Shown: positions 1,482 to 42,980 of the stretch, one piece after another
Layout: each line of letters starts with the position of its first letter
How positions within the stretch are numbered: position 1 is the stretch's first letter
NCBI GenBank assembly: GCA_020073145.1
Contig: JAIQFS010000004.1
Location: forward strand, 1-64,000
Source of the DNA: Terriglobia bacterium
GTDB taxonomy: Bacteria; Acidobacteriota; Terriglobia; Bryobacterales; Bryobacteraceae
DNA: 64,000 nt
Reading direction: 5' to 3'
Position numbers and translations under genes: made by a program
The notes under the pieces: model-generated
Seen by the model: only the letters and a program-made list of their open reading frames with translations
Told to the model about the DNA's origin: nothing
The model's database searches: none

Positions 1482-4301
1482 ATGGCAAAAGCTCTGGTAA
1501 TCGTGGAATCGCCGGCCAAGGCGAAGACCATCAACAAATACCTGGGCAAGGACTACGTAGTCAAGGCTTCGCTCGGTCATATCAAAGACCTTCCCAAGAA
1601 GGACTTGGCGGTGGACGTGGAAAAGAGTTTCCAGCCGCGCTACGAGGTGATCGAGGGAAAACGGAAGTTGATCGCCGAGCTGAAGCAAGCCGCCAAAAAC
1701 GTGGAGAGCATCTACCTGGCGGCCGATCCGGACCGCGAGGGCGAAGCCATCTGCTATCACCTGCAGGAGGAATTGCAGGACAAGAAGAACGGCAAGAACG
1801 GCCCGAGCATCCACCGGGTCATGTTCAACGAAATCACCAAGAAAGCCGTTCAGAAGGCCTTCGAGAAACCAGGGAAGGTGGACATCCACCTGGTGGAGGC
1901 GCAGCAGGCGCGGCGCGTGCTGGACCGGTTGGTGGGCTACAAGATCTCGCCGCTGCTGTGGGACAAAGTGCGGCGCGGGCTTTCGGCCGGGCGGGTGCAG
2001 ACGGTCGCATTGCGGTTGATTGTCGAGCGTGAGCGGGAAGTGCGCGCGTTCGTGCCGCGCGAGTACTGGACCATCGACTCGGAGCTGGCGGCGAAAAAGG
2101 ATCCGCATCTGTCGGCCCGACTGATCAAGGTGGATGAGCAGCCGGCCGAGATCGCCTCGAAACAGGCGTCGGACGAGGTGCTGGCGCAGATCGAAGGCGC
2201 GGTTTATCAGGTTCGCTCGGTGGTCACGCGCGAAAAGAAGCGCAACCCGGTGGCGCCGTTCATCACGTCCACGCTGCAGCAGGAATCGTCGCGCAAGCTG
2301 CGATTCAGCGTGAAGCGCACCATGATGCTGGCGCAGCGGCTGTATGAAGGCATCGAGCTGGGCCAAGAGGGCGCGGTGGGCCTGATTACCTACATGCGCA
2401 CCGATTCCACGCGCATTTCCGACGATGCCCTGAAAGACGCGCGGGATTACATCGCCGAGCGGTACGGCAAGGAATTCCTGCCGGGATCGCCGAATATTTA
2501 CAAATCGAAGAAAGACGCGCAGGACGCGCACGAAGCCGTCCGCCCCACCTCACTGGCCTACACTCCGGAGCTGGTGGAGAGGTACCTGGCGGAAGATGAG
2601 ATGAAGCTCTACCGGCTGATCTGGAACCGGTTCGTGGCCTCGCAGATGCTGCCGGCGCTGTTCGACCAGACCACCATCGACGTGGCGGCGAAGGGCAACA
2701 ACGGCCTGGACTACCTGTTCCGGGCGACGGGCTCCGTGCCCAAGTTCGAAGGCTTCCTCAAGATCTATCAGGAGGGCAAAGACCAAGCCGATGAGGAAGA
2801 CGAGGAGCTAAAGCATCGCCTGCCGGCGGTCACTGAAGGGGAAACCCTTGGCTTCCTGGGCATCAAGCCGGAGCAGCACTTCACCGAGCCGCCGCCACGC
2901 TACAACGAAGCCACGCTGGTCAAGAAACTGGAAGCCGACGGCGTGGGGCGGCCGTCGACCTATGCGTCGATTCTGTCGACCATCCAGGAGCGCGAATACG
3001 TCAACAAGGACAGCGGGCGGTTCACTCCCACCGAGCTGGGAATCGTGGTGACGGATCTGCTGCTGGAGAGCTTCGACGACATCTTCGACGTGAAGTATAC
3101 CGCGCGGATGGAGGAAGAGCTCGACGAAATCGAGGACGGCAAGCTGGACTGGCGCGAGGCCATGGCCGAGTTCTATGGCAAGTTCGAGCGTGACCTGAAG
3201 CACGCTCAAACGCACATGACCGACATCAAGCGGATGGAGAAGCCCACCAACTTGACGTGCGAGAAGTGCGGCAAACCCCTGGTGATCAAGTGGGGCAAAC
3301 ACGGCAGCTTCATTGCATGCACCGGCTATCCGGATTTTTCCCCCAGGAGCACCGAAAGCGCCTTGGAGAATGTACGGAAGGAAGTCGCCAAGCGTCAGGA
3401 GAGCGTGCGCAAGCTCATCGAAACCCGTTTGGAGAAGGTCCAGGCCCAGTTTCCCGGTCTGGCCATCAAGCGGGCCGAACACGACCGTTTCGTCGTCTCT
3501 CCCGGCGGTCCCGAAATTCCGAAGAGAGTCATCACCGGCCTCAAGAATTTTGAAAAGGCGGTAGCCGAGCGGCGGCTGAAGGATCGAAAAACGATTGAAC
3601 TGCGGCTGAAGACGATTCGGACCCGCTACCCGCAAATCAACGACTTCTATCAAGTGGATCTGGAGCATACGGCCGAGGGCGCCAGCCTGGTGTGGAAGAG
3701 AAAAGAATACTTCTGCACTTATACCCGCGAATTGACCGTCGATCTGCCCGATGTCGACAAAGCAGACCTCACCGAGCAGGGCGAGGAAGAGTACTGTGAA
3801 AATTGCGGCCGGCCTATGGTTCTCAAGAAAGGCCGTTTCGGCACGTTCTTCGCCTGCACGGCGTACCCGGACTGTAAGACGACCAAACAGATTGGCGGTC
3901 CGCAGAAGAAGCCGGACCAGCCGCTCGATGAAAAGTGCCCGCAGTGCGGAAGCAATCTGGTGCTGAAGAGCGGCCGGTTCGGTGAATTCACGGCGTGCAG
4001 CAACTACCCGACGTGCAAATATGTCAAGCAGAAGACGATCGGGGTGAAGTGCCCGGAGTGCTCCGAGGGCGAAGTGACGGAACGGCGGTCGAAGAAGGGC
4101 AAGACGTTTTACGGGTGCAATCGCTGGCCCGCCTGCAATTTCGTAGCGTGGGGAAAGCCGGTAGCGGAGAAGTGCCCCGAGTGCGGCAGCCCGTACATGA
4201 TCGAGAAATTCCTCAAGGCGGGGATGCTGTGGCAATGCCCGAACGCCGAGTGCAAGCACAAGCAGGAAGCCCCGCAACCGGCCGAGCCGGTCCTCCAATA
4301 G
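1482..4301 (+). CDS. topA: type IA DNA topoisomerase I
   Basis: TopA relaxes negative supercoils by cutting one DNA strand through a catalytic tyrosine. The 939-residue product starts with a Toprim domain ([17 protein letters not shown], then [15 protein letters not shown]). It contains the active-site motif [11 protein letters not shown] with the catalytic Tyr at residue 304. The tail holds about five Cys4 zinc modules: CEKCG near 595-618, CENCG near 772, CPQCG, CPECS and CPECG. The first module is interrupted: residues 619-744 are inserted between GYPD and its fourth cysteine (see 3336-3713). Without the insert the protein would be 813 residues, a usual TopA size. The remaining zinc modules stay in frame. 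The start is ATG 1482; no strong Shine-Dalgarno is visible. Confidence 0.96.
3336..3713 (+). other. in-frame 378-bp insertion inside topA, transposase-like
   Basis: These 126 codons (TopA residues 619-744) separate GYPD (residues 615-618) from [15 protein letters not shown] (from residue 745). In a normal TopA these are contiguous and complete the zinc finger. The segment has no stop, is rich in charged helical residues, and contains [20 protein letters not shown] followed by FYQVDLE and LVWKRKE. That pattern resembles the region of IS1634-type (IS4-superfamily) transposases that precedes their last catalytic block. The insertion point follows from comparison with the zinc-finger pattern; the transposase link is from memory and is inference. 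Confidence 0.6.
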
Positions 4302-4305
4302 ACCG

Positions 4306-5052
4306 ATGAAGATCGCGGTGGTGACGGGGGCCGGCAGCGGCATTGGCCGCGCGGTCAGCCTGGCGCTGCAAGCCAACGACTACTCCGTGGTGCTGGCGGG
4401 CCGCCGCGCCGACAAGTTAGCCGAGACCGCAGCGGCGGCGACGGCCGGCGGCGGCCCCATGCTGGCGGTGTCCACCGATGTCAGCCGGCCGGAGGCCGTG
4501 CGCGCCTTGTTTGCGCGAACCAAGGAGGAGTTCGGCCGTCTGGACCTGCTGTTCAACAACGCCGGCGCCAACGCCCCCGGCATTCCCATGGAAGATCTCA
4601 CGTACGAACAGTGGAGCGATGTGGTGGGCGCCAACCTGACCGGGGCCTTTCTGTGCGCGCAGGAAGCCATTAAGATCATGAAGGCGCAGGAGCCGCGCGG
4701 CGGGCGCATCATCAACAACGGCTCGCTTTCGGCGCACGCGCCGCGGCCGAACTCGGCGCCCTACACCGTGACCAAGCACGGCATGACCGGGTTAACCAAG
4801 TGCATTTCGCTGGATGGCCGCAAGTACGACATCGCGTGCGGACAGATCGACATCGGCAATGCGGTCACGGAAATGACCGAGCGCATGGGCAAGGGCGTTC
4901 CGCAACCCAACGGAACCCGCATGGTGGAACCACGGATGAATGCCCAGCACGTGGCCGACGCGGTGCTGTATATGGCCAATTTGCCTCTGGATGCCAACGT
5001 TCAATTCATGACCGTGATGGCGACGACGATGCCATTTGTGGGGAGAGGATGA
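4306..5052 (+). CDS. SDR-family oxidoreductase
   Basis: A short-chain dehydrogenase/reductase of 248 residues, cytoplasmic and NAD(P)-dependent. Visible motifs are the cofactor loop [12 protein letters not shown] at the N-terminus, [10 protein letters not shown] in the middle, the catalytic serine in [10 protein letters not shown], and YTVTK as the catalytic Tyr-x3-Lys. The substrate cannot be told. It starts 4 bases after the topA stop, and its stop overlaps the region where the cyclophilin gene begins, so the genes are probably co-transcribed. Confidence 0.85.
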
Positions 5053-41164: not shown

Positions 41165-41259
41165 CCGGACAGCTATCGGCGGTCCGGCCCTGAAACTGTA
41201 GGCGGCCTCAATGGTCTGATAAACTGTTAAGTATCCGCCACAGTTGGTTTTCCCCTCAG

Positions 41260-41335
41260 GGCCGGTAGCTCAGGTGGTAGAGCATGTGCCTTTTAAGCAC
41301 AGGGTCGCGGGTTCGAGTCCCGCCCGGCTCACCAA
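41260..41335 (+). tRNA. tRNA-Lys (anticodon TTT), CCA encoded
   Basis: A full cloverleaf: acceptor GGGCCGG with CCGGCTC (one G-U), D-arm GCTC...GAGC, anticodon stem TGTGC/GCACA around loop CTTTTAA, T-arm GCGGG/CCCGC around TTCGAGT, then A and CCA at 41332-41335. The anticodon reads TTT. Confidence 0.97.
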
Positions 41336-42903: not shown

Positions 42904-42980
42904 TGGTGGCGGCGCGCGGACTCGAACCGCGGACCTAGGGATTATGAGACCCTCGCTCTAGCCAGCTGAGCTACGCCGCC
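42904..42980 (-). tRNA. tRNA-Met (anticodon CAT), CCA encoded
   Basis: Minus-strand cloverleaf: acceptor GGCGGCG/CGCCGCC, D-arm GCTC...GAGC, anticodon loop CTCATAA flanked by AGGGT/TCCCT (a T-T next to the loop), T-arm CGCGG TTCGAGT CCGCG, and CCA at 42904-42906. The first pair is G-C and the acceptor is fully paired, so it is an elongator type, not initiator. A C34-modified Ile2 identity cannot be excluded. Confidence 0.93.

Follow-up and report, generated by a model that had tools for sequence, protein, structure and literature searches.

The topA gene and the segment within its first zinc ribbon

The window analysed here, a stretch of 64,000 nucleotides from a Terriglobia bacterium (contig JAIQFS010000004.1), carries on its forward strand a topA gene encoding a DNA topoisomerase I of 939 amino acids (1482-4301). 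The protein scored 845 bits against TIGR01051 (cut-off 456) and contains the Toprim (PF01751), Topoisom_bac (PF01131) and Zn_ribbon_Top1 domains as well as five PF01396 stretches; the equivalog score together with Toprim and Topoisom_bac identifies it as a bacterial TopA. Directly upstream lies an open reading frame (123-1409) that, judged by eye, we take to be dprA-like.

The initial annotation of this DNA had pointed out that GYPD and CTYTREL, which belong to the first Cys4 module of TopA, are separated by an open, in-frame segment of 378 bp, and that the fourth cysteine follows directly after it. Both observations were borne out. The first part of zinc ribbon 1, from Cys593, Cys596 and Cys613 to GYPD, is encoded at 3258-3335 on the forward strand, the stop-free insert of 126 codons (residues 619-744) at 3336-3713, and Cys745, the fourth cysteine, at 3714-3716, adjoining the insert end. 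The insert is placed between Cys3 and Cys4, and all four cysteines are retained. Its edges are codon-exact, as the TopA alignments of close relatives mostly stopped at query residues 618-620 and restarted at 745 (first search, 61 genomes). DNA and protein searches found the insert in single copy in its own genome (G000), and TopA had one match in that genome at E ≤ 0.001, so that this insert-bearing form is apparently the topoisomerase I on which the cell depends.

Transposase homology and tandem duplication

The insert alone gave nothing above cut-off against Pfam and NCBIfam and no match to NF033559 (IS1634 family) at E ≤ 1; it is a module, not a transposase, and its homology was therefore shown through the transposases of relatives. 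The second half of the insert matched open reading frames of 269-621 amino acids in these relatives. An HMM of the module was built from 15 such transposase ORFs (14 of the same family and one, L038, of another family), of which four were scanned against NF033559 and gave 298-310 bits (cut-off 100). This transposase-only HMM matched all 13 inserts found in the family, with E values of about 1e-9 to 1e-28 in a search of 13 sequences, so the resemblance to an IS1634-type transposase that the initial annotation had noticed was real. The matches fell in two or three stretches per insert; in the inspected alignments the second half was strong and the first half weaker, and each of the 15 transposase ORFs held one real copy of the module.

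The first halves of the inserts beat all 300 shuffles in 11 of the 13, the exceptions being G641 (1/300) and G589 (7/300 as high), and they outscored other TopA windows in 12 of the 13 (best window 5.6 bits, G589 4.5). By hhalign, copy 2 (residues 679-744, 3516-3713) aligned to the transposase module at 99.7% over 65 of 66 columns, the degenerate copy 1 (residues 619-678, 3336-3515) aligned to the module at 97.1%, and copy 1 aligned to copy 2 at 97.8%. Reversed controls gave 0.2, 0.2, 0.2 and 44%, and since the last was copy 1 against reversed copy 2, plain helical likeness contributes something to the match. The module measures 64-66 amino acids and is homologous to residues 377-442 of IS1634-type transposases; two copies make about 128 amino acids, which is the size of the insert. 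At the level of sequence, these alignments show the insert to be a tandem duplication of a module of about 64 amino acids from an IS1634-type transposase, with copy 1 degenerate. A single colinear transposase fragment, with its SPRS/TPRS likeness, was rejected, as both the module and copy 2 can be aligned to copy 1 without a shift of register. The captured fragment proposed by the initial annotation is thus part of a transposase, but it is one module in tandem duplication and not a single piece.

A parent element, which the initial annotation had proposed to look for in the same genome, was not found, NF033559 giving 0 matches there at E ≤ 0.001. Besides the alignment of copy 2, the TopA insert and the IS1634-family transposase (NF033559, residues ~377-442) share, in their respective models, helices that precede a beta-hairpin, whereas the insert has no catalytic domain and no element ends, holds two copies and is part of a topoisomerase. 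Three module-like HMM stretches each were seen in the inserts of G462 and G454 (L105 and L107), two members of distant genera whose inserts group together in the insert tree despite distant backbones.

Distribution in the family

A profile of the 13 inserts identified 13 carriers among 237 genomes of the family (E ≤ 5e-42), and the search with the insert itself had found, beyond G000, 12 genomes with a relative of it over most or all of its length. The remaining 16 rows of the profile search were module-bearing transposase-like ORFs, including one weak match, an ORF of 624 amino acids; scoring in this search was limited to 18 first-look candidates per genome, and the insert-only search scored nearly all candidates in the rows listed. 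In 24 genomes the insert profile picked up nothing but the 13 inserts in TopA, four ORFs resembling transposases and a marginal ORF of 608 amino acids (E 0.009). None of the 13 carrier genomes had a second TopA-type copy. A single-sequence query of a phylum sample of 396 genomes matched nothing but the insert itself and one transposase-like ORF of 202 amino acids, and plasmid and phage collections searched with the insert gave no match. Elements of the nearest transposase subgroup were rare across all 237 genomes; two of the 13 carriers had a match to it, in ORFs of 307 and 243 amino acids.

A TopA region was found in 199 of the 237 genomes at E ≤ 1e-50; the alignment comprised 58 TopA loci fetched from them, with frames set by tblastn. 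In 13 of 13 carriers the insert lies in TopA at the identical codon and has F or L as its first residue and again as its last, which adjoins the fourth cysteine; the four cysteines of the ribbon are invariant. The insert length ranges from 118 to 134 amino acids. The Cys3-Cys4 spacing is 123-139 residues in the 12 carriers in which the pattern could be read, against 5 in 44 of 46 non-carriers, and the other two non-carriers have no residue in the insert columns either. All 46 aligned TopAs of non-carriers, including those of the four other genomes of the same genus, lack the segment. Alignment with relatives, as the initial annotation had proposed, thus showed that they do not all carry it, which speaks against an old TopA domain unrelated to transposases. 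Among the TopAs fetched, carriers made up 1 of 5 in genus g1, 6 of 9 in g294, 2 of 2 in g275, 1 of 4 in g254, 1 of 18 in g255, 1 of 2 in g295 and 1 of 1 in g288; the named genomes scanned included three carriers, all of them Candidatus Solibacter MAGs. The topA gene was truncated at contig ends in several genomes, among them G641, G462, G589, G591 and G588. It is split into two frames in G646 (L101; near codon 480-500, upstream of the insert) and in G649 (L109; near codon 290), probably through frameshifts of the draft assemblies.

Since the genome of the window is a draft of 88 contigs, an assembly chimera or contamination was considered as the source of the segment. The chance of this is negligible, because thirteen genomes agree on the site and the boundaries yet differ in sequence, and no donor sequence was found in the own genome; the misassembly against which the initial annotation had cautioned is contradicted by 12 other genomes with a homologous segment at the same codon. 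An IS element, intact or as a remnant with its ends, was rejected, as no repeat of at least 10 nt joins the insert ends. The imperfect inverted pair of 18 nt (78%) at 3221-3238/3739-3756 falls in the TopA coding sequence beyond the insert, and no short target-site duplications were seen by eye on the insert flanks. A mobile cassette was unsupported by the repeat search and by the searches for extra copies. Inteins begin with Cys, Ser or Ala and end with Asn or Gln, and this identity was rejected because all 13 inserts have F or L at both ends.

Probable direction of capture

Two profile comparisons bear on the direction. Among 30 IS1634 loci that belong to other families in the phylum, the family-specific module HMM found only 3 at E ≤ 0.01 (72, 19 and 18 bits), which lowered the case for a capture by TopA. 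The case was restored by a profile cut by position, for which 24 of the 30 IS1634 loci gave an ORF over the region and 23 had enough residues: this profile of 23 other-family IS1634-type transposases aligned at 97.2% to the transposase module, 96.7% to copy 2 and 88% to copy 1. The region accordingly belongs to IS1634 transposases more widely, and the TopA segment is seen in few members of one family, a distribution that makes capture from a transposase into TopA the likely direction. An old TopA domain taken up by an IS1634 transposase is very improbable: homology by itself gives no direction and the 3 of 30 would suit such a history, but the other-family transposases do align to both TopA copies, the TopA segment is confined to few members of one family, and transposases hold one copy of the module where TopA holds a doubled, decayed one.

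Patchy occurrence and possible loss or recombination

In a tree of 59 TopA rows made without the insert columns, the carrier state needs 8 changes if gains and losses are weighted equally, and 7 of the 8 are forced by well-supported branches. Carriers as one clade were rejected (p 9e-42). A strict history of one gain means 22 losses on this midpoint-rooted tree, against the 8 changes at equal cost, and spread of the insert by transfer is therefore possible. Holding the six g294 carriers together in the TopA tree was not rejected (p 0.62), so the tree forces no separate events there, nor were the g294 inserts as one clade (p 0.25). G646 entered the 59-row tree by the longer piece of its topA only, and the carrier backbone tree was made without it.

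Local divergence around the site was compared in 26 pairs with at most 16% divergence, leaving out G641 and G646. In g294, the four comparisons of the non-carriers G640 and G643 with the carriers G644 and G639 gave 2.4-2.8 times more divergence up to 30 codons from the site than elsewhere (Fisher p between 3e-8 and 7e-7), and the other 22 close pairs had ratios up to 1.45. No excess was seen at the site in four other close carrier/non-carrier pairs, from g254, from g275 against g2 and from g295 (ratio 0.98-1.15). The g294 pattern suggests that a short tract around the empty site was exchanged by recombination along with the insert state, but fast local change after loss could also have produced it; no donor of the tract was found, and a diverged tract in one genus only argues against a general rule. 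The topA genes of G640 and G643 (L110 and L112) also have HGKF in place of HGSF and are five residues short immediately behind CTYTRE, next to the diverged tract.

The scattered carriers, with the 8 changes and the rejected single clade, and the recombination-like tract in g294 are what would be expected if the insert were a short cassette passed horizontally from one topA gene to another in the family, through homologous recombination in the conserved flanks, carriers having gained it several times. Further points in its favour are G462, which has a distant backbone and joins G454 and G589 in the insert tree (support 95/96), and the g294 carriers G639 and G644, whose backbones are 91% identical and whose inserts only 47%. 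We consider this course unlikely on balance, as insert dS exceeds backbone dS in 9 of 11 pairs and so argues against recent transfer among the pairs measured, no repeat of at least 10 nt was found at both insert ends in the window, and no second TopA-type copy occurs in any of the 13 carrier genomes. Movement of such a cassette by site-specific insertion is less likely still than by homologous recombination.

Age and selection

Substitution rates were calculated by the Nei-Gojobori method for 12 pairs of carriers, which share sequences and are not independent. From the closest to the farthest pair quoted, insert and backbone dS were 0.25/0.27, 0.51/0.47, 0.81/0.66 and 1.13/1.05; values near or above 1 are close to saturation, and the closest pairs carry most weight. 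Insert dS exceeded that of the backbone in 9 of the 11 pairs that could be compared and fell slightly short of it in two, so the insert has resided in these lineages for about as long as they have been separate. The initial annotation had called the segment a fragment of a mobile element captured without breaking the frame; the transposase origin and the kept frame stood, but the capture is neither fresh, given these dS values, nor unique, given 13 carriers in 237 genomes.

Insert dN/dS was 0.17-0.57 and below 1 in all 12 pairs, in keeping with the purifying selection expected of an exapted domain, and backbone dN/dS was 0.08-0.22 (11 pairs); the backbone figures of G646 are possibly inflated by its topA frameshift, and the G641/G646 backbone comparison, of 30 codons, was not used. 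Identity among carriers was 26-78% for the insert against 75-94% for the backbone. Five positions are invariant among the 13 inserts and 15 nearly invariant, and the conserved positions include D-R and R-L pairs that occur in the transposases too. The insert thus appears to be under real but relaxed constraint at the protein level. Its open frame in an essential gene proves nothing about its function.

The fast evolution of the insert, its relaxed dN/dS and the close relatives without it would also suit a tolerated filler, a real piece of transposase kept as a harmless loop without function of its own and constrained by solubility and formation of the zinc site. We regard such a filler as a serious yet rather doubtful alternative; it does not readily explain the invariant and nearly invariant positions with the D-R/R-L pairs of transposases, the dN/dS below 1 in all 12 overlapping pairs or the net basic charge of all 13 inserts (+3 to +12).

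Predicted fold and proposed working

An AlphaFold model of TopA residues 588-801 from the 13-row alignment (mean pLDDT 76.6) predicted for the insert a helix of 36 residues, a small strand pair, a helix of 35 residues and a beta-hairpin, with pLDDT of 86-95 and 81-93 in the helix blocks. In its secondary structure the long helix of copy 1 spans residues 621-656 (3342-3449), and that of copy 2 residues 681-715, followed by the beta-hairpin at 723-740 (within 3516-3713). The model of the transposase was weak overall (mean pLDDT 63.5), with the module as its best-predicted stretch (blocks of 81-92) and helices again preceding a beta-hairpin. A search of the PDB by fold with the insert gave nothing at E ≤ 0.001, the top three being other TopA chains (0.06-0.36), and a search by sequence turned up only four weak matches (E 0.1-0.7), which we attribute to chance similarity between helices.

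The reading that we prefer, with a probability of roughly 75%, is an exapted, dispensable, doubled transposase module that goes back to one ancestral capture and was later subject to loss or recombination under relaxed selection. The capture would likely have happened once, in an ancestral member of the family, with a relative of the IS1634 elements that the family retains today as its source, and the module would have been doubled before, at or after this event. The exact site would be common to the carriers by descent, and presence or absence would have been altered by loss or by homologous recombination with insert-bearing or insert-less alleles. The insert is an optional add-on, since close relatives do without it.

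In Escherichia coli TopA the ribbon array makes contact with both single-stranded DNA and RNA polymerase, and structures of the enzyme are deposited with single-stranded DNA (4rul) and with RNA polymerase (9gda). Taken with these contacts, the predicted fold and the basic charge lead us to infer an extra basic arm: more speculatively, the two long predicted helices may pair as a basic stalk, with the beta-hairpin leading the chain back to the zinc site, and the ribbon array might thereby gain an arm for nucleic acid or a partner. More tentative again is the proposal that the doubled module serves an essential topoisomerase as an optional, functional arm, traded between species through recombination in the zinc-finger flanks and tuning the grip on DNA or RNA polymerase; if true, a housekeeping enzyme would possess an exchangeable domain born of a transposon.

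Relation to known systems

Eukaryotes are well known to have reused parts of transposases, as are some bacterial systems. TldR factors, a case of an exapted transposon protein, derive from TnpB. In-frame insertions in housekeeping proteins are likewise known from inteins and rickettsial palindromic elements. Inteins share with the TopA insert a Cys directly after the insertion, but the TopA insert begins and ends with F or L and not with splicing residues, and in contrast to both kinds of element it has no other copy in the genome. Compared with the C-terminal zinc ribbons of type IA topoisomerases (Topo_C_ZnRpt, PF01396), which form its host domain and whose ribbon 1 cysteines are all kept, the carriers differ in a Cys3-Cys4 spacing far above 5.

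A 2022 survey of type IA C-terminal domains mentions motifs of positive charge that are inserted within a domain, and the word transposase is absent from its main text (PMC9369019). A helix-turn-helix of Tc1/mariner captured by F-box genes (PMC12062965) and the TldR factors (PMC13418256) have been presented as exaptations of a transposon domain and a transposon protein, respectively. The TopA case resembles these two in that part of a transposon protein is reused by a host or phage, but it differs in being a small non-catalytic module inside a housekeeping zinc finger, in frame, doubled and variable between close relatives. Our literature search, in which many subscription papers were out of reach, found no report of the TopA insert. 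What the case adds is a non-catalytic module in the metal-binding finger of a housekeeping enzyme with every cysteine kept, and it offers an example of how such insertions survive, duplicate and get lost. Natural pairs with and without the insert occur inside several genera, so that what a captured transposon domain does to the enzyme can be tested directly with purified TopA.

Elsewhere in the window, an open frame of 522 amino acids on the reverse strand (2808-4376) lies antisense to the end of topA and the entire insert and is likely a by-product of the GC-rich coding sequence. Genes for tRNA-Lys (41259-41334, forward strand) and tRNA-Met (42904-42980, reverse strand) are located further downstream.
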